DNA of 64,000 nt, taken from contig NC_013526.1 of assembly GCF_000025005.1 (NCBI RefSeq), positions 62,001 to 126,000 on the forward strand, read 5' to 3'. Both the position numbers and the translations under genes were made by a program. Within the stretch, counting starts at the first letter, position 1. Each line of letters begins with the position of its first letter. This document shows, piece by piece, positions 13,067 through 58,259 of this stretch. The DNA is from Thermobaculum terrenum ATCC BAA-798 (lineage in GTDB: Bacteria > Chloroflexota > Chloroflexia > Thermobaculales > Thermobaculaceae). The notes beneath the pieces are model-generated. The model saw only the letters and a program-made list of their open reading frames with translations. It was not told where the DNA came from and did no database searches.

Positions 13067-14383
13067 CTATAGTAGTTTGATGATATTGTCCAGGCTGTCT
13101 CTTACATCTTTGGAAATCTGCTTGTGGCTATTCTGATACCAATCTGTGTTCATAGCTGCATGTGCTATAGGGTTACGATAACGGCTGACTAGCTTCCATG
13201 CTTGTATGAACTCCTCTGGGAACTGATTACTTTGAGAGCTCTGGCCATCCTTTTGATCGTTGCCAAAAAGCCTATCAGCGTAAGCTTCACGTGTCCGTTG
13301 ACTCAGCCAACCCTGTACTTTGTTCCTTGCAGGTGTCTTCTTACATTCGTAGAGTATAGCTGCGGAGACCAACCATTCCCTTGCAAGGAGCAGAGCATTG
13401 CCAACCTGCTTGCTATTCAACTGCCTTTCTATGATCATCTTTTGCCGCTCTAGCTCATCCCGGGATAGCTTTATGTCTTCCTTCTTAGAAGCTTGATCTG
13501 TGGATACTTCGTTCAGTAGTTCCTTGAGCTTTTTCAGGAAGTCCCTTAATACCGGCCTAAATTTGTTTGTCCGCGTGCTAATTGTCTCCAGAAGACTACG
13601 CAGTTTGCGCGCTTCCATCCCCATCTCCAGCGGCATGGCATTTTGCAGGTAGAAATCTATCTTCTTCAAACTATCAACCAGCGCTGATGAGAATTGTTCC
13701 GGGATAAGGTTAGGATCGCTAGCGTTCTTACCTAGAAAAGATGATCTTATCCTCTCGGCTAGGGGCAATGTGATCAGGTGTTCGTCGAAGAGCCTCAGGC
13801 CGTAGGTCCAGTCAGAGATGGATGTTATGAGGGTGATGTCGATTATGGGAACCTCAGGTGTCCCGCCTTCCTGCCCCTGGCCAGCTGTTCCCTGCGTGTT
13901 CCCGACTGATTCGAAGGCCCCGTAGTAGATCTTCAGGTCAGCGGCCCTATTCAGGTACAGGTAGTACTGGGCAGCGGAGATCATGACGGTCGGCAGGGAC
14001 CTAAAGCCGTTGGTGATGTCTATGATTATGTGGTCTCCCTGCTCGATATGCTTGCCTAACGTCTCGAATATCTGCCATAGTTCTTCCTTATCCTTGCCGT
14101 CGGGGATTTCCTCCACTCGTAGCTCCCACGCCCGCCCGCCCACACTCCTCTTTTCTTCGAACTCTTCATGCAGAAGTTTGTGGTTATCCGAATCCTTGAC
14201 CCTTGCAGTTTCCAGAGCCACTATTTCCAGGGGCTGTCCGCACTCCACAGCCAGCTCGGCTAATCCCATAGCGGCGAACCTGGTTACACTGGACGTTCGC
14301 CCAGGGTCTCCCTCGATGTAGTAACGACAAGGATCGTACCGTCTTGTTCCCAGGGCGGTTATGAGCTTGGTCCTGTTCTCCAT
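13067..14383 (-). CDS. CARF-HEPN CRISPR ancillary ribonuclease (Csx1/Csx2-like)
   Basis: 438 residues. The N-terminal CARF domain (about 1-190) starts with TKLITALGTRRYDPCRYY and contains IIIDITNGFRSLPTV, the signature of the TM1812/TIGR02221 group. The C-terminal HEPN domain ends with RNPIAH (R403-H408), an R-X4-H ribonuclease motif. Such proteins bind cyclic oligoadenylate made by Cas10 and degrade RNA non-specifically. ATG 14383 is chosen over TTG 14395 as the better start 16 bases after the upstream stop. It is paralogous to the gene before it. Confidence 0.87.
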   Translation of the reverse strand: MENRTKLITALGTRRYDPCRYYIEGDPGRTSSVTRFAAMGLAELAVECGQPLEIVALETARVKDSDNHKLLHEEFEEKRSVGGRAWELRVEEIPDGKDKEELWQIFETLGKHIEQGDHIIIDITNGFRSLPTVMISAAQYYLYLNRAADLKIYYGAFESVGNTQGTAGQGQEGGTPEVPIIDITLITSISDWTYGLRLFDEHLITLPLAERIRSSFLGKNASDPNLIPEQFSSALVDSLKKIDFYLQNAMPLEMGMEARKLRSLLETISTRTNKFRPVLRDFLKKLKELLNEVSTDQASKKEDIKLSRDELERQKMIIERQLNSKQVGNALLLAREWLVSAAILYECKKTPARNKVQGWLSQRTREAYADRLFGNDQKDGQSSQSNQFPEEFIQAWKLVSRYRNPIAHAAMNTDWYQNSHKQISKDVRDSLDNIIKLL

Positions 14384-14399
14384 TGCTGCTTCCAAGGGC

Positions 14400-15704
14400 T
14401 CAGTTGCCCTCCCCCACAGTTTGAGCGTCAGCCTGCCTAATGAGCGCCAGGATCGTCTCCAGCCTGTCCGTGTTGAGTTCGAGCCCGGATACGGCCTCGG
14501 GCCTCATGCCACAGTGTGCCAGCTCGTTACGAATCTTCACGGTGGAGTCCCAGGCGTCGATAAGCTCGTTCATCAGCTGGTCATCCCGTGCGAAGTAGAG
14601 GGGTACATGGTTTCTTCGGCATCGGGAGAAGGTGTTCAGGTCGGCTTCGGCATCCCGACGCGTCCTGTCGTAGTCCAGCCAGGAGTCGCCCTTGCCCAGG
14701 GCGTACACATAGGCCGATACTATCCACTCCCTCATAAGGGTAACGCTGCTCAGGATGTTGCCCATGCGCTTGTAGCTTTCGATCAGCTTGAGTTGGCGCT
14801 CAAGCTCTTCGGGAGTTAGGGGGTAAGTGGGCTTCTCTTTGGGATCTATGCCCACACATATATTCCTGGCCTGCCTCTCGATCTTCTCCCAGAAGTCCTG
14901 AATGGGTGGGAAGCTGGGGAACTCGGCGCGGGCCTCCTCAGCTCTCTGGAGCAGCTCGCTGGCCTTTATCCCCGCCTCTATCGGGAGGTTGTTGTGCAGA
15001 AGCCTGTCCAGCTCCTTCAGGGCCGTGGAGACTTTTTTTATGCGCGTGAGCCTCTGCCCCTGCCAGGAAGGGTCAACGTGCGACCGCTTCTGGGTCTGTT
15101 CGATCTGATCTGCCAACGGGGCTGCTACCAGGCGCTCCTCGAACAGCTTGGCGCCGTAGGTCCAGTCGGCCAGCGCCAGGATCATGTCGAGCGATATTAC
15201 AGGCGTGGCTTCCTCAGGAGGCCTGCTAGGCAGAAAGGCAGAGTAATACACATTTAAAGATGACAGCGGCTTGTTGAGCCTGTAGTACTGCAGGGCGGTG
15301 ACCATCACCACCGGGATGGATCTGAATCCGTGAGTAATGTCGACTATCACGCTGTCGTTGACTTCCAGGGCGTGCCCTATCTTCTCAAATATCTCCCACA
15401 GCTCGGCCTCGCTCATGCCCTCGGGTATGTCCAGGGGCTGATAGCTCCAGCCGTGTGCCTGCACGGCCTTGGCGTAGTCGGCGTAGTGCGTGCTGTTGGG
15501 ATTGTTGCGCGCGCCCCCGGTCCACAGCGCCACCACGTGCAGGGGTTCTCCATGCGGGCTAAGGATCTCCCCCAGGGCGATAGAAGAGAACTTGTTGGGG
15601 CCGGAGACCTCGTCGTCGAGCTTGTATCTGACTTCGCTGTAGTTACCGGTGCCAACGGCGGTGACCAGCACTCTGCGCCAGTTAGAGGAGTCAGCTTCCT
15701 GCAT
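14400..15704 (-). CDS. CARF-HEPN CRISPR ancillary ribonuclease (Csx1/Csx2-like)
   Basis: 434 residues, first gene of the cas operon. CARF half: RRVLVTAVGTGNYSEVRY and VIVDITHGFRSIPVV. HEPN half: KIRNELAH gives the R-X4-H active site at about R392-H397. It shares the layout of the next gene (DITxGFRS, SDWTYG/ADWTYG, REWLVSA/REWIVSA), so the pair arose by duplication. ATG 15704 is preferred because a sigma70-like promoter lies at 15741-15769; the longer frame back to 15794 would start upstream of that promoter. Confidence 0.87.
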   Translation of the reverse strand: MQEADSSNWRRVLVTAVGTGNYSEVRYKLDDEVSGPNKFSSIALGEILSPHGEPLHVVALWTGGARNNPNSTHYADYAKAVQAHGWSYQPLDIPEGMSEAELWEIFEKIGHALEVNDSVIVDITHGFRSIPVVMVTALQYYRLNKPLSSLNVYYSAFLPSRPPEEATPVISLDMILALADWTYGAKLFEERLVAAPLADQIEQTQKRSHVDPSWQGQRLTRIKKVSTALKELDRLLHNNLPIEAGIKASELLQRAEEARAEFPSFPPIQDFWEKIERQARNICVGIDPKEKPTYPLTPEELERQLKLIESYKRMGNILSSVTLMREWIVSAYVYALGKGDSWLDYDRTRRDAEADLNTFSRCRRNHVPLYFARDDQLMNELIDAWDSTVKIRNELAHCGMRPEAVSGLELNTDRLETILALIRQADAQTVGEGN

Positions 15705-15740
15705 GCAAAGGTCCCTTTCTGTACAGATAAGTTTGCACGT

Positions 15741-15769
15741 ATTATTGCACTGTGGACTACATCTTTCAA
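15741..15769 (-). promoter_or_regulatory. Sigma70-type promoter of the type III-B operon
   Basis: Read on the minus strand: TTGAAA (15764-15769), 17-base spacer, AATAAT (15741-15746). Both boxes match consensus at 5 of 6 positions. Predicted transcription start is near 15735, about 30 bases before the ATG at 15704. Confidence 0.7.
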
Positions 15770-15825
15770 TAGTCAAAGAGTAATATTGGGGCAAAAAGAT
15801 ATATGATTTTGTTAGAAGGTGGAGA

Positions 15826-18960: not shown

Positions 18961-19135
18961 CCCCCTGGAGCCCTCGCTCGTCGCACCCCAGACCATAATT
19001 CCAGCTCCCCAGGGACGGAGGTCATCGGTGACCGTTTCTGTGCAGGCATATGGTCTGTGCCGATCTCCTCGGGGTTGAACCCTGTGAGGGCTCACGTGTC
19101 CTCTTCCACCCCTAGCTATAGCGCCTGTATTTTCG

Positions 19136-19150
19136 TATAATTGTATACAA
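19136..19150 (+). promoter_or_regulatory. -10 box fused to TTGTATACAA operator (dehydratase promoter)
   Basis: A perfect TATAAT (19136-19141) shares its last base with the palindrome TTGTATACAA (19141-19150). The same palindrome recurs at two other promoters in this window (26843-26852 and 26980-26989). A repressor here would cover the -10/+1 region. No good -35 box was found. Confidence 0.7.
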
Positions 19151-19187
19151 AAATGCAGAAATACGCGAACCAACAGGCGGTTGTTAA

Positions 19188-20912
19188 GTGGAGCTGAGAA
19201 GTCGAAGATGGTTTGACAGGCAGGGCGAGCTCGGGCTGCAGCACCGGTCGGTGCTGCGTACCCTGGGAATGAATCCCGAGTTGTTCCGGGGTAAGCCCGT
19301 GATAGGCATAGCCAACACATGGAGCGAGCTGAACAACTGCAATCTGGGGTTGCGAGCGTTGGCCGCCGCTGTCAAGAGAGGGGTGATGGCTGCCGGAGGG
19401 GTCCCTCTGGAGTTCAACTCCATATCTCTGGGCGAGGAGCTGATGAAGCCTACCGCCATGCTGTACAGGAACCTGCTCGCCATGGAGGTCGAGGAGACCC
19501 TGAGGTCCTACCCGATAGACGGCGTGGTGCTGCTCGGAGGCTGTGACAAGACCATACCAGCGCAGCTAATGGCGGCCGCCAGCGCCAACATCCCGGCGAT
19601 TCAGGTGTGCGCAGGTCCCAAGATCCCTGGCTGCTGGCGGGGGCACAGGCTAGGATCGGGGGTTGCTCTGTGGGAGTACATGGACAAGTACAGGCTCGGG
19701 GAGGTGGATGGGTCGAGTGCCGAGGAGCTGGAGGCGCGCTACTCGGCCAGCGTCGGCACCTGCAACACTATGGGAACCGCCTCCACGATGGCTGTGCTGG
19801 CCGAGGCGTTGGGCATGATGCTGCCTGGCACATCCACCATCCCAGCCGTGGATTCCAGAAGACTCGCGGCTGCCGAGAAGAGCGGCTTTGCGATCGTCAA
19901 TCTGGTCCAAAGGCAGATAAAACCCTCGGATATCATGACCCGGGACGCGTTCGAGAACGCATTGATAGTCTACTCAGCGATAGGGGGCTCCACGAACGCG
20001 GTGATCCACCTCCTGGCGATGGCTGGCAGGCTGGGAATCGATCTGCAACTTGCAGATTTCGATCGTGTGGCTCGCATGGTCCCGATGCTGGTAGATGTGG
20101 AGCCGTCCGGCGAGAAGCTGATGGACGACTTCGACGCAGCGGGCGGAGTGCCCGCGCTGATGCGCGAGCTCCAACACATGCTCTCGCTAGGCTGCCTGAC
20201 GGTCACCGGTGAGACTCTGGGCAAGAACCTGGAGTCAGCCCCAGAGCCACAGGGCGACACCATCAGGTCGTTGGCCTCTGCCCCCTATGCGGACGGCAGC
20301 ATAGCGGTGCTCCATGGTAACCTCGTGCCGAGGGGGGCTATCCTGAGGACCAGCACGGCTTCTCCCGATCTGCTACGGCACTCTGGGCCCGCGCTGGTCT
20401 TTGAGAGTTATGAGGATATGCTCCAGAGGATAGATGACCCTGACCTGCCGGTGACCCCGTCCTCTGTGCTCGTGCTGCGCAATGCCGGGCCGGTCGGTGG
20501 GCCGGGTATGCCCGAGTGGGGTGCCATCCCCATACCACGCAAGATGCTATCCAGGGGCATCAAGGACATGTTACGCATCAGCGATGCGCGCATGAGCGGC
20601 ACCAGTTCGGGCACCATAGTGCTGCACGCCTGTCCCGAGGCAGCCGTAGGGGGGCCTCTGGGATTGCTGAGGGACGGGGACATGGTGGAGATAGACGTTG
20701 CCTCCCGCAAGTTATCTGTGCTCCTGGATGAGGAGGAGATGGACCATCGTAGGCAAGAGTGGAGGCCACCTCCGCGCAAGCACGTCCGGGGCTACCCCCT
20801 GCTCTACATGGAGCACGTCCTGCAGGCCGATGAGGGCTGCGACTTCGATTTTCTTAGGCTGGTCCCAGGGGAAGATCTGGGCCTGGTTGAACCGGTTGTA
20901 GGTAGATCCTGA
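19188..20912 (+). CDS. IlvD/Edd-family sugar-acid dehydratase
   Basis: 574 residues, the usual length. Iron-sulfur cluster and active-site landmarks are ANTWSELNNCN, LLGGCDKTIPAQLMAAA, GTCNTMGTASTMAVLAEALGM and the C-terminal SDARMSGTSSGTIVLHACPE. The family contains dihydroxy-acid dehydratase and the pentonate/hexonate dehydratases. The neighbouring GH4 enzyme and the shared operator with a sugar ABC system favour a sugar-acid substrate over branched-chain amino-acid synthesis. The GTG start has only a weak ribosome site; it is kept because the family N-terminus begins here. Confidence 0.85.
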   Translation: MELRSRRWFDRQGELGLQHRSVLRTLGMNPELFRGKPVIGIANTWSELNNCNLGLRALAAAVKRGVMAAGGVPLEFNSISLGEELMKPTAMLYRNLLAMEVEETLRSYPIDGVVLLGGCDKTIPAQLMAAASANIPAIQVCAGPKIPGCWRGHRLGSGVALWEYMDKYRLGEVDGSSAEELEARYSASVGTCNTMGTASTMAVLAEALGMMLPGTSTIPAVDSRRLAAAEKSGFAIVNLVQRQIKPSDIMTRDAFENALIVYSAIGGSTNAVIHLLAMAGRLGIDLQLADFDRVARMVPMLVDVEPSGEKLMDDFDAAGGVPALMRELQHMLSLGCLTVTGETLGKNLESAPEPQGDTIRSLASAPYADGSIAVLHGNLVPRGAILRTSTASPDLLRHSGPALVFESYEDMLQRIDDPDLPVTPSSVLVLRNAGPVGGPGMPEWGAIPIPRKMLSRGIKDMLRISDARMSGTSSGTIVLHACPEAAVGGPLGLLRDGDMVEIDVASRKLSVLLDEEEMDHRRQEWRPPPRKHVRGYPLLYMEHVLQADEGCDFDFLRLVPGEDLGLVEPVVGRS

Positions 20913-20940
20913 GAGAATTCTTGATCCAAAGGAGGAGGAG

Positions 20941-22287
20941 ATGGCACCAAGAATAACGATCATAGGGGCTGGCAGTGCTGTGTTCTCTCTTAGCCTCATA
21001 CGAGATCTCTGCCTGACTCCCAATCTAAGTGGTAGCACAGTCGTGTTCATGGATATAGATCCAGACAGGTTGGATGTCGTGTACAACCTTTGCCGTAGGT
21101 ATGCCACGGAGGTGGGCACACAGCTTTACCTTGAGAGCTCCACGGATCGCAGGCAGGCGCTGCAGGGGGCGGACTTTGTGGTGAACACCGCACTGGCTGC
21201 GGGTCACCATAGGCTGCGTGAGGGTTGGGATAAGGCGCGCAAGCTGGGTTATCGCCTCGGCGGTAGCCTTCACGTGATGCATGACGAGGCCTTCTGGATC
21301 AACTTCTACCAGATCAGGCTCTTCGAGGAAGTCCTCCAGGACATTATGGAGCTATGCCCCGATGCCTGGTACCTACAAGTAGCCAATCCGGTCCTGGCTG
21401 GCATAACCTATCTGTCCCGCAAGTACCCCCAAGTCCAGATGGTCGGCCTATGCCACGGTTTCTCCGGTGTGTATCACCTGGCAGATGTGCTCAAGCTCGA
21501 CAGAGACAAGCTCACCTTCCAGGTGCCTGGGGTCAACCACCACGTCTGGCTGACGCATATCTACCATAACGGTCAGGATGTCTTCCCTCTCCTCGAGGAC
21601 TGGATAGCGCAAGAAGCTCCAGCCTATTGGGAGAACTGTGGCTGGAGTGATGATCTCGGGCCCAAGGCCATCGACCTCTACCGCAGGTTCGGGGTGTTCC
21701 CTATAGGCGACACCTGCACCCCGGGAGGCGGATCATGGCCCTGGTGGTACCATACCAGCGAGGAGGTCGAGCGGTGCTGGCGGGAGGACCCGGCAGGCTG
21801 GTGGCAGCGCTATTTCCAGTGGGGGGAGAGCAAAGTTAGGCAGATGGCCCAGCTGGCAGCTGATCCAAACGCCAGGCTCATCGATCATTTCCCTCCGAAG
21901 GCTTCGGGCGAGGTCATGGTGCCTATGATGGAGTCGCTGTACTTTGATGTGCCCAAGGTGCTCATAGGGAACGTGCCGAACACGCACGAGTTCGTGCCGG
22001 GCCTACCGAGGGATATCGCCGTGGAGGTGCCTTTGCTGGCGAGCAGGCGAGGCCTTGAGCCCGTGCACACTGATGGCCTGCCCGGACCCGTCATCGACCA
22101 CATACTTCGCGACAGGGTAGCTCCGGTCAATATGGAGCTTGCAGCCTACGAGCACGGTAGCTTGGAGCTGCTGCGCCAGCTAGTGCTCATGGACCCATGG
22201 ACCCGCTCCGAAGAGCAGGCAGCTAAGTTGGTTGAGGAGATACTTAGCCTGCCAGGGCATGAGGCCATGAGGGAGCACTACAGGTAG
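20941..22287 (+). CDS. GH4-family NAD-dependent glycosidase (alpha-galacturonidase/glucosidase type)
   Basis: 448 residues. The N-terminal Rossmann motif (ITIIGAGSAVFS) binds NAD. GH4 metal-site residues are seen in LQVANPV, GLCHGFSG (Cys and His) and GVNHHVWL (His). The family uses a redox-assisted elimination with NAD and a divalent metal. The HHVW and NTALAAGHH segments resemble the LplD-like alpha-galacturonidase branch more than classic 6-phospho-glucosidases, but the substrate is not certain. AAAGGAGGAGG precedes the start. The gene follows the dehydratase by 28 bases, forming a two-gene operon. Confidence 0.82.
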   Translation: MAPRITIIGAGSAVFSLSLIRDLCLTPNLSGSTVVFMDIDPDRLDVVYNLCRRYATEVGTQLYLESSTDRRQALQGADFVVNTALAAGHHRLREGWDKARKLGYRLGGSLHVMHDEAFWINFYQIRLFEEVLQDIMELCPDAWYLQVANPVLAGITYLSRKYPQVQMVGLCHGFSGVYHLADVLKLDRDKLTFQVPGVNHHVWLTHIYHNGQDVFPLLEDWIAQEAPAYWENCGWSDDLGPKAIDLYRRFGVFPIGDTCTPGGGSWPWWYHTSEEVERCWREDPAGWWQRYFQWGESKVRQMAQLAADPNARLIDHFPPKASGEVMVPMMESLYFDVPKVLIGNVPNTHEFVPGLPRDIAVEVPLLASRRGLEPVHTDGLPGPVIDHILRDRVAPVNMELAAYEHGSLELLRQLVLMDPWTRSEEQAAKLVEEILSLPGHEAMREHYR

Positions 22288-22302
22288 AGTGCTCCCTCAT
22301 GG
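22265..22302. terminator. Bidirectional terminator-like inverted repeat
   Basis: A 15-bp perfect stem (22265-22279 with 22288-22302) encloses an 8-base loop and contains the stop codons of both convergent genes (GH4 on plus, GH30-like on minus). It has no long T tract. Confidence 0.6.
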
Positions 22303-23583
22303 GGCACAGGAGGTGACGGTGAAGATGCTCTCGGGCAGTACGTGCAGCTGCAGCTGCCGAGAGAGCGGAAACCTGTACAGCATCTCGCAGTTCAGCTCCC
22401 TGGTCGTCGCCCAAATCGAGCACTCCCTGCCTCCCAGGGACGCTTCGTCTGCGTGCTCAAGCGCGAGGCGCAGGGAGATGTGATCCTGTCCCTCGTTGAG
22501 GCCGACAATGGTGATACCCTCTGCGTGGGTGAACGCGAGGCAAGTTACCCCTGAGTAGCTGGTGGTCACCGCCACCCTGCGGGCCCCCGCACGCACGAAC
22601 CTGTAGATCTGTTTGGCGGCGTAGTACCTCTTCTTGGGGAGGTATCGGCCCAGGGCAGTGCGCAGCAGGCCATATATGCTCCAGGACTCATCGTGGCGAT
22701 GGTAGTTATCGTAGGCGTCCCATACCAAGGCTGCCTGGGCACCATCTTGAAGCCCTCGCAAGAGGCGGCGTGTGGAGGCCACCGCTACTTCCCATTCCTT
22801 CTCTCCGGTCTGGTCCAGGTCCCCGTACTCGGTCAACCAGTATCTCCATGGCAGGTCAAGATCTTGGATAAAGCGGCTTACGGAGTCTAGAGGTATATCC
22901 GAGTAGCAGTGCATCCCGACCACGCCTACCGCGTCCCGGGCGGCGGGCTCGCGAGCTATGGCCTGGATGTAGTCGAGGTTATATCTGCCCTGGTCGGCCA
23001 CCACCAGCTTGACGTCCCTTAGCCCCAAATCCCGCAGCCCAGCGGCAAGCAGTGCCGTCGCCTCGGCCACGATCTGGGGTTCCGCGCTGGGGCCCTCTGG
23101 GAGGCCAAGGTCCGTCTCGTTGAAGGGACCGAAGAGTTTTACTGGCAGACCCTCCTTGTGTCTGGCCCAGTCTACCAGTGACACCAACAGCTCACAGTAG
23201 GCCTTGATGTCGGTGAGGCGATCTTGTTCGTCACACATCCAATTGGGCACCCGGCCGCTGACGTTCAAGAGGATAGTCGCACCCTTGCTCGCCAAGTAGC
23301 GGGCCGTCTCCCAGGCTTCTCCGAAAGGTGGTGACCTGTACGCTGCCTCGTAATTTATCCGGTTGAGGGCGCTTTTGCCGAGCTCACCCATCGGATCTAT
23401 CCAGTCGGTCGTGCCGTAAGGGTCCAGCCGAAAGATGCTAGCTCCCAGGTCGTCCACCAGCGTGTCCAGCACGGGAGCCAGCTTGCCATCTCTCCAGTGG
23501 GAGACGGGGTTGATGTTGACCCCGAAGCCATCTATCTCCTGGTATTGGGACTCCAGGTCCACCCTTACATCTACAGCTACCAT
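22297..23583 (-). CDS. GH30-like (clan A) glycosidase
   Basis: 428 residues, no signal peptide, so probably cytosolic. The start QEIDGFGVNINP resembles the GH30/GH39-type N-terminus. The acid/base Glu is likely E156 in GPFNETD and the nucleophile E252 in LTEYGDLD, both at strand ends of a TIM barrel. A beta domain fills about 330-428. It is the last gene of the ABC transporter operon and would hydrolyse imported oligosaccharides. A good GTAGGAG site precedes the ATG. The exact GH family is uncertain. Confidence 0.72.
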   Translation of the reverse strand: MVAVDVRVDLESQYQEIDGFGVNINPVSHWRDGKLAPVLDTLVDDLGASIFRLDPYGTTDWIDPMGELGKSALNRINYEAAYRSPPFGEAWETARYLASKGATILLNVSGRVPNWMCDEQDRLTDIKAYCELLVSLVDWARHKEGLPVKLFGPFNETDLGLPEGPSAEPQIVAEATALLAAGLRDLGLRDVKLVVADQGRYNLDYIQAIAREPAARDAVGVVGMHCYSDIPLDSVSRFIQDLDLPWRYWLTEYGDLDQTGEKEWEVAVASTRRLLRGLQDGAQAALVWDAYDNYHRHDESWSIYGLLRTALGRYLPKKRYYAAKQIYRFVRAGARRVAVTTSYSGVTCLAFTHAEGITIVGLNEGQDHISLRLALEHADEASLGGRECSIWATTRELNCEMLYRFPLSRQLQLHVLPESIFTVTSCAP

Positions 23584-23591
23584 CTCAGCTC

Positions 23592-24440
23592 CTACTTGAT
23601 AGATCCTATCACCAGCCCCTGCCTGATGTAGCGCTGCATCAGGATGTAGATGCCCATGGGGGGAATAGACGCTAGCAGCAGTCCAGTGATGAGTAGCGGA
23701 TAGTCGCTGCTATACCTACCGACTATGGTGGCGACCGCGACCGTGATGGTCATCTTGTTGTCTGACTGGAGGAATATCAGGGGCAGAAGCAGGTCGTTCC
23801 ACCAGCCGGTGCAGTTGAATATCAGCACGGTGATGATGCCCGGCACGCTGAGCGGCATCACCAGCCAGAGGAGGGTCTGCAGGAAGCCGGCACCATCGAC
23901 CTTCGCTGCCTCCAGCACCTCGTTCGGTATGCCCCTCATGATAGCGCTGAGCAGGAAGATCGTCCCAGGCACGCTAGTAATCCCCCATAGCAGCACGACG
24001 GACAAGTAGTGGTCCACCAGCCCCAGTTTGGACATCAGCAGGTAGTTGGGGATTATAAAGGTTATGGTTGGGATGATGAGCGTGGAGATGATCGCCATCC
24101 GTAAGAAGCCCCTTGCAGGGAAGTTCATCTTGGCTAAGGCGAATGCCCCAGGGATAGAGATAGCCAAGGACAGGGCTGCGGCCAACAGGATGTACAGCAG
24201 CGTGTTGAAGAAAAGCCTTGGCAGATCGAACCTGTAGAACATACCTATGTAGTTATCCAGGTATGTCCAGTGCCTCGGCATCCCTAGGGGATTGGTAAGA
24301 TACTCGGCGTTCGTCTTCAGGGTGTTGGCCGCCATGAAGAAGATCGGGTACAGATCTACCACCGCCACAAGCGTGAGGATCAGGGAGATCAGCCATCTCC
24401 AAGCCTGCTCTCTGTGGGGAAAAGCGCTTGCTCTGATCAT
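23592..24440 (-). CDS. CUT1 sugar ABC transporter permease (MalG-like)
   Basis: 282 residues with six membrane segments. The inner-membrane EAA loop is ILEAAKVDGAGFLQTLLWLVMPLS-like (EVLEAAKVDGAGF), which docks the ATPase, and the chain ends in YIRQGLVIGSIK as is usual for the second permease. Works with the adjacent permease and binding protein; no ATPase gene is present, so a shared MsmX-type ATPase is likely encoded elsewhere. The start lies 4 bases after the upstream stop. Confidence 0.9.
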   Translation of the reverse strand: MIRASAFPHREQAWRWLISLILTLVAVVDLYPIFFMAANTLKTNAEYLTNPLGMPRHWTYLDNYIGMFYRFDLPRLFFNTLLYILLAAALSLAISIPGAFALAKMNFPARGFLRMAIISTLIIPTITFIIPNYLLMSKLGLVDHYLSVVLLWGITSVPGTIFLLSAIMRGIPNEVLEAAKVDGAGFLQTLLWLVMPLSVPGIITVLIFNCTGWWNDLLLPLIFLQSDNKMTITVAVATIVGRYSSDYPLLITGLLLASIPPMGIYILMQRYIRQGLVIGSIK

Positions 24441-24444
24441 GCAT

Positions 24445-25404
24445 CTACTCCGTAGTGAGCTTGTCGAAAATCTTTAGCTGTACGCCTGAAACTATGGCCA
24501 CGATCACGAACAGGATCACCGCCAGTGCTGAGGCGTAGCCCATGTCCCCGACCTGGAATGCCTTCAGGTAGATCATGTAGTCGATCGGAGTCGTAGAGTA
24601 CCCGGGCCCCCCACCAGTGACCGTGTACACCAGGGCGAACAGGCCGACGAAGATCCATATCACGTTGATGATCATGAAGTAGGCTATGGTGGGCACGAGC
24701 AGCGGCAATGTGACCTTCCAGAACCTCTGCCACCAGCTGGCTCCGTCGATGCGTGCTGCCTCGAACAGCTCGGTCGATACATTGGCCAGCCCCGAGAGGA
24801 ATATCAGTACTCCCTGCCCGAGCGTCTGCCAGTAGAACGCCAGTATGAGCACCATGAAGGCCGTGGGCGTGGAGCTAAGCCACTCGGTCGTTAGAAAAGC
24901 TAGTCCGAGGTCCTTTAGCAGCTGGTTCACTGCGCCCACCGGAGAGAACATGGTTTTCATGAGCATGCCCACTACCGCAGCCGACAGGATGGTCGGCAGG
25001 TAGTACACCGATCTGAAGAGCCACCAGCCTGGGACCTGCTCGTACAGCAGCACTGATAATACCAGGGATATCAGGAGGATGCCGGGGACGGATAGCAGGA
25101 ACACGGCGTTGGTCCTTAGCAACATCCATAGGTCGCCGTTGCTAATGATATCGATGTAGTTGTGGAGCCCTATCCAGCTGGAGTTGTAGCCGTCCCAGCG
25201 AGTGAAGCTATGGTAGATGCTGTTGATGAAGGGGTACCATACCAGTAGGCCTATCGACGCGAGCGACGGGAGCAGCGCGAGGTAGGCGGTTATGGCCTCC
25301 CGTTTGGCCAACCCTCCAGGTCCTATGCTGAGCACACAGCCTGGTGCCTTCTTGGATGCTTGCCCCAGGGCCCTGCCGGTGCCGGTTCCGCGTAAGGTAC
25401 TCAT
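24445..25404 (-). CDS. CUT1 sugar ABC transporter permease (MalF-like)
   Basis: 319 residues with a basic N-terminal tail, then six membrane segments starting at AYLALLPSLASIGLLVW. The EAA loop is ELFEAARIDGASWWQRFWKVTLP. Middle gene of the operon; TAGGAG precedes the ATG. It pairs with the MalG-like permease immediately downstream. Confidence 0.9.
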   Translation of the reverse strand: MSTLRGTGTGRALGQASKKAPGCVLSIGPGGLAKREAITAYLALLPSLASIGLLVWYPFINSIYHSFTRWDGYNSSWIGLHNYIDIISNGDLWMLLRTNAVFLLSVPGILLISLVLSVLLYEQVPGWWLFRSVYYLPTILSAAVVGMLMKTMFSPVGAVNQLLKDLGLAFLTTEWLSSTPTAFMVLILAFYWQTLGQGVLIFLSGLANVSTELFEAARIDGASWWQRFWKVTLPLLVPTIAYFMIINVIWIFVGLFALVYTVTGGGPGYSTTPIDYMIYLKAFQVGDMGYASALAVILFVIVAIVSGVQLKIFDKLTTE

Positions 25405-25413
25405 CGGCTTCTC

Positions 25414-26763
25414 CTAGAGCAGCTCGTCGCGCTTGTTATCCAGCTTCTCCATGAAGTCCTTGGGGCTGAGCTTACCGGTCCAAGCTAGTTGAGCCTGAGC
25501 TACCTCTTCGGCCGTGAGCTCGGCGGGGAAGACGTTGTCCGGCCAGAATATAGTGGTCGGCTCGTTGCCCCACTTGTACTGTAGCCTGAGCAACGGGTCC
25601 TTGTAGAGCTCATTGGGGTCAACATCCTTCACGTTCACTAGGTTGCCCTCTCCGGACTTGGCCTTCAGCTCCTGCTCCTCCTTGCTCATCAAGAACTTGA
25701 TGAAGTCCACTGCCTCCTGCTTGTGCTTGGAGTAGTTGGAGACCACGAAGGCCGTGCCCACCCCTCCAACGCCTCCGTTCTTGATGGGGGCGTCATCGCT
25801 GTAGTTCGGGATCTTGACCATTCCTAGAGCATCCCCCAGGGTTGTGCGAGCATCAGAGATGATCCAGAATCCTCCCGTCGTCATGGCGGCCTTCTTCCGA
25901 TAGAAGAGCTGGACAGCTTCGTCCCCAGCTGACTCCGCACCAGGATTAGTGTATGGTCGCAGCTTGGTCCAGTTCTGGACGATGGACACTAGCTTGGGGT
26001 CGCTGAACTTCCTCTTGCCAGTGACTAGCTCCTCCAGCCCTGGGCTGCCATCTATCATCTGCGCGATCCAGTAGTTCAACAAGTGATAGACGTACCCACC
26101 ACCTCCAAGCGTCAGCGGTATTACCCCGGTGGTCTTGATCTGCTGGAGCACCTGGAGAAAGCCTGCGAAGTCCGAGGGCCAGTTCTTCTCGGGATCCACT
26201 CCTGCCTTCGAGAGCAGGTCTTTGTTGTAGAAGATGCACACACAGCCATCGGACCCGGCCGGCACGCCATAGGTCTTGCCCTGACCCGGCCTAAAGCCCT
26301 CTGTGACGGCTTCCCAACCGGTTATGCGGTCCTTCTCTGGCTGGGTGAAGTAGCTGTCCAGGGGCTCCAGGAACTGCTTGAGATTGAGCATGTAGTTGCC
26401 GGACCAGGTGCCAAAGACGTCGGGCCCGTTCTTGGCGATGCTGGCCGTACGGAACTTGGTGAACATCTGCGGATCACCAGGCACGGATACCAGCTCCACT
26501 GTGATGTGAGGGTTAGCCGACTCGAACCTCTTGATGGCCTGGTAGATGTAGAACTGCTCGCGTTTCTTCTTCTTGTTGGGATCCTCTGTCGGATAGAGGG
26601 CGTTCCAAAAGGTTATCTTGACCGGGGCGCTGCTTGCGCCTCCGCTCTTCGGGGTGGGGGCGGTTGCCTGCGGCGCGCCGCAGGCAACCGCCATGCCTGC
26701 TAATGCTAGGCCTCCTATCTTTAGAAAAGACCTTCTTGATAAAGGCTGCTCAGTGCTGCTCAT
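25414..26763 (-). CDS. Extracellular sugar-binding lipoprotein (family 1 SBP)
   Basis: 449 residues. The N-terminus carries both a twin-arginine motif (SRRSFLKIGG) and a lipobox ending in a Cys (AGMAVAC), followed by a Ser/Thr/Pro linker. The mature part is a family 1 solute-binding protein (ITFWNALYPTEDPN..., PDVFGTWSGNYML, KAAMTTGGFWIISDA). It captures an oligosaccharide for the two permeases downstream. ATG 26763 is chosen for its AAGGAG site and the signal starting there; the in-frame ATG at 26832 lies within 11 bases of the predicted -10/operator. Confidence 0.9.
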   Translation of the reverse strand: MSSTEQPLSRRSFLKIGGLALAGMAVACGAPQATAPTPKSGGASSAPVKITFWNALYPTEDPNKKKKREQFYIYQAIKRFESANPHITVELVSVPGDPQMFTKFRTASIAKNGPDVFGTWSGNYMLNLKQFLEPLDSYFTQPEKDRITGWEAVTEGFRPGQGKTYGVPAGSDGCVCIFYNKDLLSKAGVDPEKNWPSDFAGFLQVLQQIKTTGVIPLTLGGGGYVYHLLNYWIAQMIDGSPGLEELVTGKRKFSDPKLVSIVQNWTKLRPYTNPGAESAGDEAVQLFYRKKAAMTTGGFWIISDARTTLGDALGMVKIPNYSDDAPIKNGGVGGVGTAFVVSNYSKHKQEAVDFIKFLMSKEEQELKAKSGEGNLVNVKDVDPNELYKDPLLRLQYKWGNEPTTIFWPDNVFPAELTAEEVAQAQLAWTGKLSPKDFMEKLDNKRDELL

Positions 26764-26842
26764 CGCTCGCTCTCCTTCCTCTCCCCTTTTGATCTCCGAT
26801 CTCGTATGCCTTACTAGCCCTGATGCCTGCAATACCCCTATT

Positions 26843-26857
26843 TTGTATACAAATATA
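26843..26857 (-). promoter_or_regulatory. -10 box fused to TTGTATACAA operator (ABC transporter promoter)
   Basis: Minus strand: TATATT (26852-26857) runs straight into TTGTATACAA (26843-26852), sharing one base, exactly as at 19136-19150. It lies about 80 bases before the binding-protein start at 26763. Confidence 0.7.
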
Positions 26858-26948
26858 CGAATTTATGTCCCGTAGCGGTTAGCTAATATTGTAGTAGGGA
26901 GGTCAGGGCTTGTCAATAGGTTCTTGACGGTGTGTTTTGGGATTCCTA

Positions 26949-26989
26949 TTGCTTCTATGGGCGCTTTGCACTAGAATGTTTGTATACAA
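26949..26989 (+). promoter_or_regulatory. Promoter and TTGTATACAA operator of the GntR operon
   Basis: TTGCTT (26949-26954), 17-base spacer, TAGAAT (26972-26977), then the palindrome TTGTATACAA at 26980-26989, over the predicted transcription start. This is the arrangement expected for an autoregulated GntR repressor. Confidence 0.7.
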
Positions 26990-27015: not shown

Positions 27016-27705
27016 GTGGAGGCGGTTCTGAAGGTTCCCCCCGTAGGTCAGCCCCGGCGCTACCGAGAGCTGGTGTACGCCTCCATCAAAGAGGCTATCC
27101 TCCAGGGCCAGTTCGCCCCTGGCCAGCCGTTGGTGGAAGAGGAGATCGCCAGGTCACTCAACGTTAGCAGGACCCCCGTCAGGGAGGCTCTGCTCATGCT
27201 CGAACACGATGGTCTGATAGAGACCAAGTATGGTCGTGGTATGTACGTGCGCAGGCTGACCCGGGAGGATTTTATCGATATGTTCACGGCCAATGAGGTG
27301 ATCGAGCCTTACCTGGCAAGGCGAGCCTGTCTCTACGTAACCAATGACCAGATACAGCAGATGGAAAAGGTGATACAGATGGGGGAGGAGGCCGCCAGCA
27401 ACGAGGACGTCCCTACCTTCCTGCGCTCCGGCAGGGAGTTTCATGCGCTGATAGGTGAGGCAGCAGACAACAGATCGCTCGCAGAGGTCGTCAACCGCAA
27501 CGAGGAGAAGACGGATCTCTTTCTCATGGCCTACGGCAAGTGCCTTGACAGGGAGTGCATGTTCGCTTCTAACCGGGAACACAGGCTCATTATGCAGGCG
27601 CTGGTGAGGAGGGATCCAGACGAGGCCGCCAGGCTGGTCCTGTTCCATTGCCAGTCGGTCAGGCACAGGTTCTCTCCCTTGTTCAACCACGAGGAGGAAG
27701 GTTAG
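27016..27705 (+). CDS. GntR-family (FCD-type) transcriptional regulator
   Basis: 229 residues. An N-terminal winged helix (YRELVYASIKEAILQGQFAPG, then VEEEIARSLNVSRTPVREALLMLEHDGLI) is followed by an all-helical FCD ligand domain (about 85-220) with metal-binding-type residues (FHALIGEAADN, REHRLIMQAL). GTG 27016 is chosen because AGGAGG lies 7 bases upstream; the longer frame from 26932 reads through the operator. It likely represses its own operon, the divergent ABC transporter and the distant dehydratase/GH4 operon through TTGTATACAA; this is inference from the shared sites. Confidence 0.85.
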   Translation: MEAVLKVPPVGQPRRYRELVYASIKEAILQGQFAPGQPLVEEEIARSLNVSRTPVREALLMLEHDGLIETKYGRGMYVRRLTREDFIDMFTANEVIEPYLARRACLYVTNDQIQQMEKVIQMGEEAASNEDVPTFLRSGREFHALIGEAADNRSLAEVVNRNEEKTDLFLMAYGKCLDRECMFASNREHRLIMQALVRRDPDEAARLVLFHCQSVRHRFSPLFNHEEEG

Positions 27706-27707
27706 CG

Positions 27708-29006
27708 ATGGGCAACACAGAGGGCAATCTCCAGTGGGTTGAGAGGGCTAGGCGTCATATACCGGGGGGCGTCAATTCTAACAACCGAGCTCTGCCCTGG
27801 CCTATGGCGATAGTCAGGGCCGAGGGAGCTTACTTCTACGATGCCGACGGCAATCGGTACCTCGACTATCACGCGGCGTTCGGCCCCATTATCCTGGGAC
27901 ATAATCATCCCGCGGTGAACGCCGCCGTGAGGGAGGCTATGGAGAGGGTGGACCTCGTGGGAACGGCAGTGACCGACCTAGAGGTGTTGCTTGCAGAGAA
28001 GATATCCGAGCACGTCCCGTCTGCCGAGATGGTAGCGCTGTGCAATTCAGGGTCGGAGGCGACCTACCTCGCCATCAGATTAGCTCGGGCCGTCACCGGT
28101 CGCCCCTCTATCGTCAAGTTCCAGGGGACCTATCATGGTTGGCACGATGCCGTGGCCATGAACGTGATCAGCCCACCAGAGAGGATTGGGCGAAAGGACC
28201 CGCTATCTCAGGGCATGCTACAGGAGGAGATAGACCATACCTTTGTGCTCCCCTTCAACAATCTGGAGGCCGTAGGCGAGCTCATGGACAGTCGCAGTGA
28301 TGAGATAGCCGCGGTCATCGTGGAGGTGATACCTCATAACATAGGCTGTGTCATGCCCAAAGAGGGGTTCCTAGAGGGTCTGAGGACGATCACCCACGCG
28401 AACGGTAGCCTGCTCATATTCGATGAGGTAGTCACAGGGTTCCGCCATGACCTGGGTGGATACCAGCGGATATGTGGGGTTACCCCTGACCTGTCCACCT
28501 TTGCCAAGGCCATGGCCAATGGCTATCCCATAGCGGCTCTGGTCGGCAAGGCCGAGTACATGGAGAGGCTAGCACCGGGAGGGGGAGTGTTCTTTGCCGG
28601 CACCTTTAACGGCACGCCGAGCAGCGTGGCGGCGGCGCTCGCGACCATCCGCGAGCTGGAGGTTGGAGGGGTCCACGAGCACTGCTTCCAGCTGGCTGAG
28701 ATGGCCGCCAACGGTCTGCAGGAGATAGCCAGCGAGCTGGGCATCGTCATGACCGTTGCTCGCTTTGGATCGGTCTTCGTACCTTACTTTATGGAGGGGC
28801 CCATCGAGAGCTACGAGGACCTGCTGCGGAACGACACGGAGAGGGATATCTGGTTCAGGAGATCGATGTGCGAGCACGGGGTGTTCATGCTCCCCACCGC
28901 CTTGAAGCGTAACCATGTGGGAGCTGCCCACACGGAGGCGGATATAGCTATGACCCTCGAGATCGCCAGGCAGGTGCTCTCGAGCATGCCAGCGCACGTG
29001 TCATGA
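27708..29006 (+). CDS. Class III PLP aminotransferase (glutamate-1-semialdehyde mutase-like)
   Basis: 432 residues. The fold-type I landmarks are NSGSEATYLAIRLARA (phosphate cup), YHGWHD, LIFDEVVTGFR (PLP-ring Asp) and Lys267 in STFAKAMANGYP, the Schiff-base lysine. It resembles HemL, but its place between a GntR regulator and a dehydrogenase within a sugar regulon argues for a catabolic amino-sugar or aldehyde/ketone substrate rather than haem synthesis. GAGGAAGG precedes ATG 27708, two bases after the regulator stop. Confidence 0.82.
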   Translation: MGNTEGNLQWVERARRHIPGGVNSNNRALPWPMAIVRAEGAYFYDADGNRYLDYHAAFGPIILGHNHPAVNAAVREAMERVDLVGTAVTDLEVLLAEKISEHVPSAEMVALCNSGSEATYLAIRLARAVTGRPSIVKFQGTYHGWHDAVAMNVISPPERIGRKDPLSQGMLQEEIDHTFVLPFNNLEAVGELMDSRSDEIAAVIVEVIPHNIGCVMPKEGFLEGLRTITHANGSLLIFDEVVTGFRHDLGGYQRICGVTPDLSTFAKAMANGYPIAALVGKAEYMERLAPGGGVFFAGTFNGTPSSVAAALATIRELEVGGVHEHCFQLAEMAANGLQEIASELGIVMTVARFGSVFVPYFMEGPIESYEDLLRNDTERDIWFRRSMCEHGVFMLPTALKRNHVGAAHTEADIAMTLEIARQVLSSMPAHVS

Positions 29007-29016
29007 GGTGGTAGGG

Positions 29017-29781
29017 ATGAGGCTGGACGGTAAGGTAGCGGTGATAACAGGAGCGGCTTCCGGTATAGGTCGAGGCACCGCGGAGGTGTTCGCCGAGCAC
29101 GGAGCAAGGCTAGTCTTGGTCGACCTGGACGCTGAGGGTCTGGCGGGCCTCGTCGGCCAGCTCAAGGCTGGAGGGGCCGAGGTCGTCGGCATCAGCGGGG
29201 ATGTCTCCCACAAAGCGACCGCGGTAGAGGCCGTTGGAGCCGCCCTCCGGCAGTATGGTCGAATCGATGTGGTGTTCAACAACGCGGGCGTGATGTACTC
29301 CGGGGCCTTTCACGAGCTGGGCGATGACCTGTGGGACAGGGTGCTCGATGTAAACCTCCGAGGCACCTACCTCTTCTGCAGGGAAGCCATCCCTCACATG
29401 CTGGAGCAGGGCCGGGGCTCGATCATCAACATGTCCTCCGTCATGGCCACGCTGACCGAGCCGGGTTACGAGGCCTACACCACATCGAAGGCCGGGATCA
29501 TCGGCCTCACGAAGGCCATCGCGGTGTCCTACGCTGAGAGGGGGATAAGGTGCAACTGCGTGTGTCCGGGCTGGGTGGATACACCCCTGAACCGTAGGTT
29601 GGCTGAGGAGCTTGGGGGGATGGACCGGCTGAACGCCCTGATCAAGCAGCAGCAGCCCAACGGCAGGATGCTCTCCACCCGCGAGGTGGCCAACGCAGTC
29701 CTGTTTCTAGCCTCCGACGAGTCCAGTGGCGTCACGGGAGCGGCGATCTACGTGGACGGCGGAGCCTCGTCGGCGATCTAG
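29017..29781 (+). CDS. Short-chain dehydrogenase/reductase
   Basis: 254 residues, classical SDR. NAD(P) motif TGAASGIG at 11-18, NNAG at 88-91, catalytic Ser140/141 and Y154-x3-K158, and a C-terminal VTGAAIYVDGGASS. Asp36-Asp38 after strand 2 (LVLVDLD) favour NAD. It is the last gene of the GntR operon and probably oxidises or reduces a sugar-derived carbonyl. ATG 29017 lies 10 bases after the aminotransferase stop. Confidence 0.88.
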   Translation: MRLDGKVAVITGAASGIGRGTAEVFAEHGARLVLVDLDAEGLAGLVGQLKAGGAEVVGISGDVSHKATAVEAVGAALRQYGRIDVVFNNAGVMYSGAFHELGDDLWDRVLDVNLRGTYLFCREAIPHMLEQGRGSIINMSSVMATLTEPGYEAYTTSKAGIIGLTKAIAVSYAERGIRCNCVCPGWVDTPLNRRLAEELGGMDRLNALIKQQQPNGRMLSTREVANAVLFLASDESSGVTGAAIYVDGGASSAI

Positions 29782-56455: not shown

Positions 56456-56659
56456 TCATGGCCTCCTAATCGATATTGGTCAATTATATACACTCCTCTG
56501 CTCACAACATACACTTCCACGTCCTAGCCGTACACATACACGTATGATCAAAATTAATTTGTATATTGCTTTGGCCTTTTAAATTAAGTTAAAAAATGTA
56601 TGTATTTAATTACACTCTTATTGTATACTGTAATAGATATATTTGCTTTTGTGATACAT
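56456..56659. other. A+T-rich intergenic stretch before the RTX-like gene
   Basis: About 200 bases, strikingly richer in A/T than the rest of the window (for example around 56530-56600). It must hold the promoters of the GNAT (minus) and the RTX-like gene (plus); TATACT near 56626 is a possible -10. No coding frame is convincing. The base composition suggests acquired DNA. Confidence 0.5.
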
Positions 56660-57506: not shown

Positions 57507-58259
57507 GTGAGTCATTCGGACAGCGATGCGAGGTCTCTGGATCTGTTCGAGGCCGTGGAGCGAGAGTCCACCCTCGCACAGAGGGTCGGGCAGAAGATCC
57601 AGCAGGTGATCGTCCAAAACCGCCTGAGGCCCGGCGACCGACTCCCCTCGGAGCGTGATCTGGCAGAGCGCTTCGGCGTCAGCCGCACCGTGATCAGGGA
57701 GGCCGTCCGGTCCCTCATGGCCAAGGGGATACTCGAGGTCCGCGCGGGCAGCGGCACGATCGTGCGCGCTCCCTCCACCAGCTTCCTGTCGGACTACCTG
57801 GAGCTGTACCTCTCGATGCGCTCCGGCAAGTTTGACTACCGAAAGGTGGTGGAGGTAAGGCGGCTGCTGGAGGTTGAGATAGCTGGGCTTGCCGCCGAGC
57901 GCAGGGACGAGGAGGACCTGCGTACCCTGGAGCGGATATTGGCACAGGCCGAGGAGCACCTGGATGACCCGGATGCCTTCGTGGAGCTCGATGTGCAGTT
58001 CCACTCCGCCTTGGCGCAGGCCACGCACAACGAGCTGTTCCTCGTGCTCCTTGAGTCCATAGCCGGGGTGATGGTCCAGGTGAGGTTGCTGGGCCTCAGG
58101 GTGCCTGGCACGCCTCAGAGGGCACTGGCCTACCACCGAGATATCTACCAGAACGTCCAGAGGGGCGACCGAGAGGGCGCCCGGCGGGCTATGGACAGGC
58201 ACATGGACGAGGCCGAATCCACCATGCGGGAGGCTATGGCCGGTGACGCAGATGGCTAG
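57507..58259 (+). CDS. FadR-type GntR transcriptional regulator
   Basis: 250 residues. Winged helix: LAQRVGQKIQQVIVQNRLRPGDRLPSERDLAERFGVSRTVIREAVRSLMAKGILEVRAGSGTIV. The C-terminal FCD domain (about 95-240) is all-helical with metal/ligand His in FVELDVQFHSALAQATHNEL and YHRDIYQNVQRGDREGARRAMDRH. GTG 57507 with AGGAGG upstream. It probably represses its own operon through the palindrome at 57466-57481; the inducer is likely a sugar acid. Confidence 0.88.
   Translation: MSHSDSDARSLDLFEAVERESTLAQRVGQKIQQVIVQNRLRPGDRLPSERDLAERFGVSRTVIREAVRSLMAKGILEVRAGSGTIVRAPSTSFLSDYLELYLSMRSGKFDYRKVVEVRRLLEVEIAGLAAERRDEEDLRTLERILAQAEEHLDDPDAFVELDVQFHSALAQATHNELFLVLLESIAGVMVQVRLLGLRVPGTPQRALAYHRDIYQNVQRGDREGARRAMDRHMDEAESTMREAMAGDADG

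Follow-up and report, generated by a model that had tools for sequence, protein, structure and literature searches.

A predicted autoregulated GntR/FCD repressor and its shared operator in a three-unit glycoside or uronide regulon of Thermobaculum terrenum

The window analysed here is a 64-kb stretch of the 1.07-Mb second replicon (chromosome 2) of the heat-loving soil bacterium Thermobaculum terrenum YNP1 (whole genome 3,101,581 bp). We are confident that it encodes a local, autoregulated repressor of the GntR/FCD type, which is predicted to control a three-unit glycoside or uronide catabolic regulon through the palindrome TTGTATACAA. The neighbouring GntR protein very probably docks at this palindrome. 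The regulon reading is well supported, although the system is ordinary in kind, and its architecture and operator match known FCD-GntR repressors of the Atu1419/VanR type.

Exactly three copies of TTGTATACAA are present in the window, at 19141-19150 (site 1, upstream of a dehydratase-GH4 operon), 26843-26852 (site 2, upstream of a transporter operon) and 26980-26989 (site 3, 26 bp 5' of the gntR start codon). Even with one mismatch allowed, the window holds no other copy, which bears out the coordinates and the uniqueness claimed in the first-pass annotation. The genome-wide scan suggested in the same annotation counted five exact copies, against a single copy of the reversed control word; three of the five are the window sites and two lie at ORFs on chromosome 1. 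One of these (C1:314732) is internal to a 416-aa ORF. The other (C1:1104799; L087 2300) coincides with the 5' end of a 631-aa sensor histidine kinase ORF; it could be intergenic, given a translation start further downstream, and reflects either chance or a distant regulon member. Copies with one mismatch show no excess genome-wide (56, with 55 for the control, among the matches listed), so the signal resides in the exact sites clustered within 8 kb, and a wider genomic regulon built on one-mismatch sites was rejected on these counts. The tandem arrangement GTATACNNGTATAC, again with one mismatch, occurs nine times genome-wide and the control eight times, window sites 1 and 2 being among those nine. 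Among the papers listed by a literature search on the exact 10-mer, all were unrelated.

The word has TATA-like steps, and in this window (60% G+C) it is the promoters that are rich in A and T, so an AT-rich, -10-like 10-mer might simply recur in the promoters of a GC-rich replicon, and the one-mismatch counts at control level would fit such a recurrence. However, 100 dinucleotide shuffles of the window produced no exact TTGTATACAA, the sites are conserved together with the regulator in relatives, and an accompanying half-site is found at offset 8 and at none of the other offsets examined (see below). We consider the probability of chance recurrence negligible, and rejected it on the shuffles and the comparison with relatives.

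The first transcription unit encodes an IlvD/Edd-type sugar-acid dehydratase (19188..20912, + strand), which belongs to a subfamily with L-arabinonate and other aldonate dehydratases and is nearest to the L-arabinonate type, followed by a glycoside hydrolase of family 4 (GH4; 20941..22287, + strand). The closest solved GH4 structures are 1obb, 3u95 and 1vjt, and the nearest solved enzymes carry an alpha-glucosidase annotation. The GH4 protein has a CHGF motif, which we take to be typical of alpha-glucuronidases; a literature check on the GH4 CHGx motif yielded nothing useful. The transporter operon (- strand) consists of an extracellular sugar-binding lipoprotein (25414..26763, with the ATG at 26763 taken as start), ABC sugar transporter permeases of the MalF/UgpA type (24445..25404) and the MalG type (23592..24440), and, as its last gene, a glycoside hydrolase with a weak GH59 or XynC-type GH30 match (22297..23583). 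In the third unit (+ strand), the gene for the GntR-family regulator (27016..27705) is followed by genes for a class III (HemL-like) PLP aminotransferase/aminomutase (27708..29006) and a short-chain dehydrogenase (SDR; 29008..29781). The aminotransferase resembles glutamate-1-semialdehyde aminomutase, but chromosome 1 carries further HemL-like genes, so a catabolic role is plausible. Elsewhere in the window, two adjacent genes on the - strand (13067-14395 and 14400-15794) encode tandem Csx1/Csm6-like CARF-HEPN proteins (PADLOC 270-274 bits), which are type III CRISPR ancillary effectors.

The regulator scores 71.5 bits for the GntR domain (cut-off 27) and 78.5 bits for the FCD domain (cut-off 24.3), which places it in the FCD (FadR-type) subfamily. 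Members of the VanR subgroup of FCD proteins have a C-terminal domain with six helices, not seven. The AF2 model (pLDDT 88.7) has six C-terminal helices (83-107, 110-128, 132-150, 153-172, 179-197 and 201-223), a predicted fold of the VanR type, and Atu1419 was among the top matches in a fold search with this model. The metal-binding residues expected in the FCD pocket are an Asp and three His. Of the latter type, H143, H189 and (nearly) H211 are conserved across the orthologues described below. Residue 139, four positions before His143, is Gly or Ser throughout the orthologues; in other FCD proteins this position is presumably a metal-binding Asp, and the effector pocket of the group may therefore differ. 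The NCBIfam cut-offs for UxuR, ExuR and NanR are not reached (72.3/442, 63.5/396 and 69.9/260 bits, respectively), so we file the protein only as an FCD-type GntR regulator. Operators of FCD (FadR-type) regulators are AT-rich palindromes with TKGT/ACMA boxes and 2-3 nt between GT and AC (PMC4494728), and the arrangement TTGT-AT-ACAA, found in the window and at the orthologues, is consistent with binding by a regulator of this subfamily.

A contig scan with the single GntR protein found one distant relative only. Our set of orthologues comprises 14 proteins from Chloroflexota with 46-56% identity. Among 158 genomes of the class, a clear gap separates the orthologues (46-55%, E below 1e-58) from other GntR proteins (best 8e-31), and three further orthologues (L084-L086) come from another family of the phylum. 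Most of the 14 adjoin homologues of window genes, and the DNA between the genes carries TTGTATACAA-like sites. The aminotransferase, the commonest neighbour, is present at most of the first 11 loci and the dehydratase at four; GH4 and SDR genes also recur. Upstream of these 11 genes, TTGTATACAA tops all 1024 palindromic 10-mers, and it occurs with at most one mismatch in 9 of the 11 cases (mean 0.07 in shuffles), L052 and L059 having sites with two mismatches only.

The three loci from the other family all carry pairs of sites, and five of the six sites are exact. In L084 and L085, genes for GntR, GH4, aminotransferase and SDR diverge from those for the binding protein, two permeases and the dehydratase, with two sites between them. 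The homologues of window genes at these two loci are 35-65% identical (48-54% for the binding lipoprotein, 60-63% for the MalF/UgpA-type and 55-57% for the MalG-type permease). L086 has two exact sites between the dehydratase and gntR-aminotransferase genes. The relatives yielded no counterpart of the glycosidase that ends the transporter operon; in L084 the GH4 operon instead closes with a different glycosidase-like ORF. At four loci (L053, L054, L055 and L061) the GntR-aminotransferase pair lies beside a peptide-type ABC transporter, an enolase-superfamily enzyme and a ceramidase-like protein, and in L053, L055 and L061 also beside a DUF455 protein. From these different neighbours, the regulator seems to have been reused there for another pathway.

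An operator matrix built from 18 sites of other genomes, with the window left out, ranks sites 1, 2 and 3 first to third in the 64 kb, at 25.2, 21.9 and 19.1 bits; the next score is 15.6 bits. This fourth hit, TTGTATACTG at 56621-56630, falls within an AT-rich stretch where a repeat-rich ORF (GGxGND-type) begins, and an unrelated GntR gene (57507-58259) is some 900 bp away; the hit was taken as background rather than as a further operator.

The sites could be real operators and yet serve another GntR/FCD paralogue, an unrelated regulator or several paralogues that share them. The genome has 14 GntR-type HTH matches in total, and TTGTATACAA-like words occur upstream of 10 of the 25 related FCD-GntR genes in a comparison set (one being the window's own), so that a paralogue could in principle share the sites. 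The operator is also less private than the first-pass annotation implied, since the same palindrome stands upstream of related FCD-GntR genes in other genomes. On the other hand, the exact site is absent upstream of the other GntR genes examined in this genome (the best word is TTGAATACAA, at one paralogue), and the sites track the GntR orthologue group across genera, even onto a separate contig in one genome (G421). In genomes that lack a GntR orthologue of this group, the dehydratase homologues (51-53%) are without a site, their best matches having 3-5 mismatches; this control is supportive rather than decisive because these are more distant homologues. We consider a different binder very unlikely, and the tracking of the sites with its orthologues favours the protein encoded at 27016-27705, already named as the obvious binder when the sites were first noticed.

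In G421, the regulator, aminotransferase and dehydratase genes are together on one contig. A search of this genome for exact TTGTATACAA revealed a pair of sites 247 bp apart on another contig, upstream of an operon for GH4 (59%) and SDR (37%). In this way the operator led to the missing regulon genes in trans. A carbohydrate esterase gene (SASA, PF03629; L111 8293-9528) is divergent from this GH4-SDR operon, with the two sites between them, and may belong to the regulon as an additional member. Elsewhere in G421, and in G465, exact copies have no adjoining homologues of window genes, except for a 40% SDR about 3 kb from one copy in G465; the control counts lead one to expect such stray copies. 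Genome-wide, the exact 10-mer is no more frequent than the control in the larger relatives, and the word alone therefore does not define the regulon there. Together, the conserved sites beside the orthologues, the union of the genes in L084 and L085, the lack of sites at dehydratase homologues where the regulator is missing, and the match in trans in G421 support the original proposal that three operons share one operator and form one regulon.

The positions of the sites relative to promoters differ. Each site had been placed over a -10/+1 region, which holds for sites 1 and 3: site 1 overlaps a TATAAT, for which the best -35 scores just 3/6, and site 3 directly follows a TAGAAT (-35 3/6) and has weak flanks. 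Site 2 does not conform, as it lies about 30-40 nt downstream of the expected transporter start. The TATATT that flanks it has no good -35, and the only strong promoter of the transporter operon is a predicted sigma-70 promoter at 26888..26916 on the - strand (TTGACA-17-TACAAT, 11/12). The true promoter at site 2 is probably this element, read from 26916 to 26888.

Two of the window sites share the flank TTCGTATAwT, which the first-pass annotation read as a -10 box fused to the operator. To judge from its spacing, the better explanation of this flank is an additional half-site of the operator, weaker and 8 bp away. Of the 18 orthologous sites from other genomes, 12 have a GTAT/ATAC half-site whose distance to the core is precisely 8 bp, and none has one at offset 5, 6, 7, 9 or 10; because the 18 sites include close relatives, a binomial probability for this offset overstates their independence. 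In the window, two of the three sites have the offset-8 half-site, as GTATAA at -8 for site 1 (19135-19140, overlapping a TATAAT) and ATATAC at +8 for site 2 (26853-26858). The half-site of site 1 may double as a -10 box. For GntR-family regulators, a survey describes divergons with double sites as well as palindromes that are accompanied, at 7-12 nt, by weaker extra half-sites (Suvorova et al. 2015, PMC4494728), and the window regulon has both.

We propose that a GntR dimer binds each TTGTATACAA palindrome, with the weaker GTAT/ATAC half-site 8 bp away probably providing a second contact or binding a second dimer. Positioned at or just past the start sites, the protein would block RNA polymerase or its progress, most likely by occluding the promoters at sites 1 and 3 and by acting as a roadblock at site 2. 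The distance between sites 2 and 3, both in the divergent gntR/transporter region, is 137 bp (13.05 helical turns), and the two may therefore be occupied jointly or form a loop. The inducer would be a pathway intermediate, most likely a sugar acid, which on binding in the FCD pocket would free the DNA of GntR, and import, hydrolysis and breakdown would then be induced together. The opposite direction of control also deserves consideration, with GntR as an activator or dual regulator that loops the DNA via the downstream and divergent sites. Some FCD regulators act as activators, and looping would fit both the 13-turn spacing and a site 2 placed at about +30; Atu1419 can form loops (PMC7797058). 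Yet all three sites occupy what we read as repressor positions, sites 1 and 3 over the expected -10/+1 and site 2 past the start, and we regard activation as unlikely.

The proposed repressor can be compared with several known systems. Atu1419 of Agrobacterium fabrum (PDB 6Z74, 6ZA3) is an autoregulated FCD/VanR-type GntR repressor with three identical 10-bp palindromes, ATGTATACAT, that overlap -10 regions; a single divergent region holds two of the three (PMC7797058). The palindromes ATGTATACAT and TTGTATACAA are of equal length and have a common GTATAC core, and the two proteins are alike in fold class and in the SRTPVREAL recognition helix, but only about 23% identical. Atu1419 differs in its hydroxycinnamate pathway and folate effector; its tetramer and looping are established, whereas looping by the window protein is a possibility, and we found no mention of an 8-bp auxiliary half-site in the passages of that source consulted (PMC7797058). 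The E. coli regulators UxuR, ExuR and DgoR resemble the window protein: they are FCD proteins that regulate the catabolism of sugar acids, and their operators are palindromes of the form GT-N2/3-AC (PMC4494728, PMC7674646); the UxuR and ExuR models match it weakly, with scores far below cut-off, and gene set and operator flanks are different. NanR of E. coli binds cooperatively to a closely spaced (GGTATA)3 operator, a likeness in that several FCD-type dimers bind close repeats of a GTATA-type box (PMC8012715). However, NanR achieves cooperativity with direct repeats and an N-terminal extension of 32 residues, whereas the window has a palindromic core, and its regulator only about 15 residues before the HTH, modelled with low confidence.

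We tentatively speculate, as a somewhat doubtful possibility, that the regulon represents an undescribed Chloroflexota glycoside/uronide pathway, combining the HemL-like aminotransferase/aminomutase with the sugar-acid dehydratase, SDR and GH4, together with a composite operator (palindrome plus 8-bp phased half-site, for more than one dimer) that stands between the Atu1419 and NanR modes. The general picture of GntR regulation is unchanged. A survey of the family counted six Chloroflexi proteins of the FadR subfamily (Suvorova et al. 2015, PMC4494728), and few regulons have been tested in this lineage, for which the window now provides a concrete set of regulator, operator and genes. The 8-bp phased auxiliary half-site is directly testable, and the regulon ties an odd enzyme pair, a HemL-like aminotransferase and a sugar-acid dehydratase, to glycoside catabolism.
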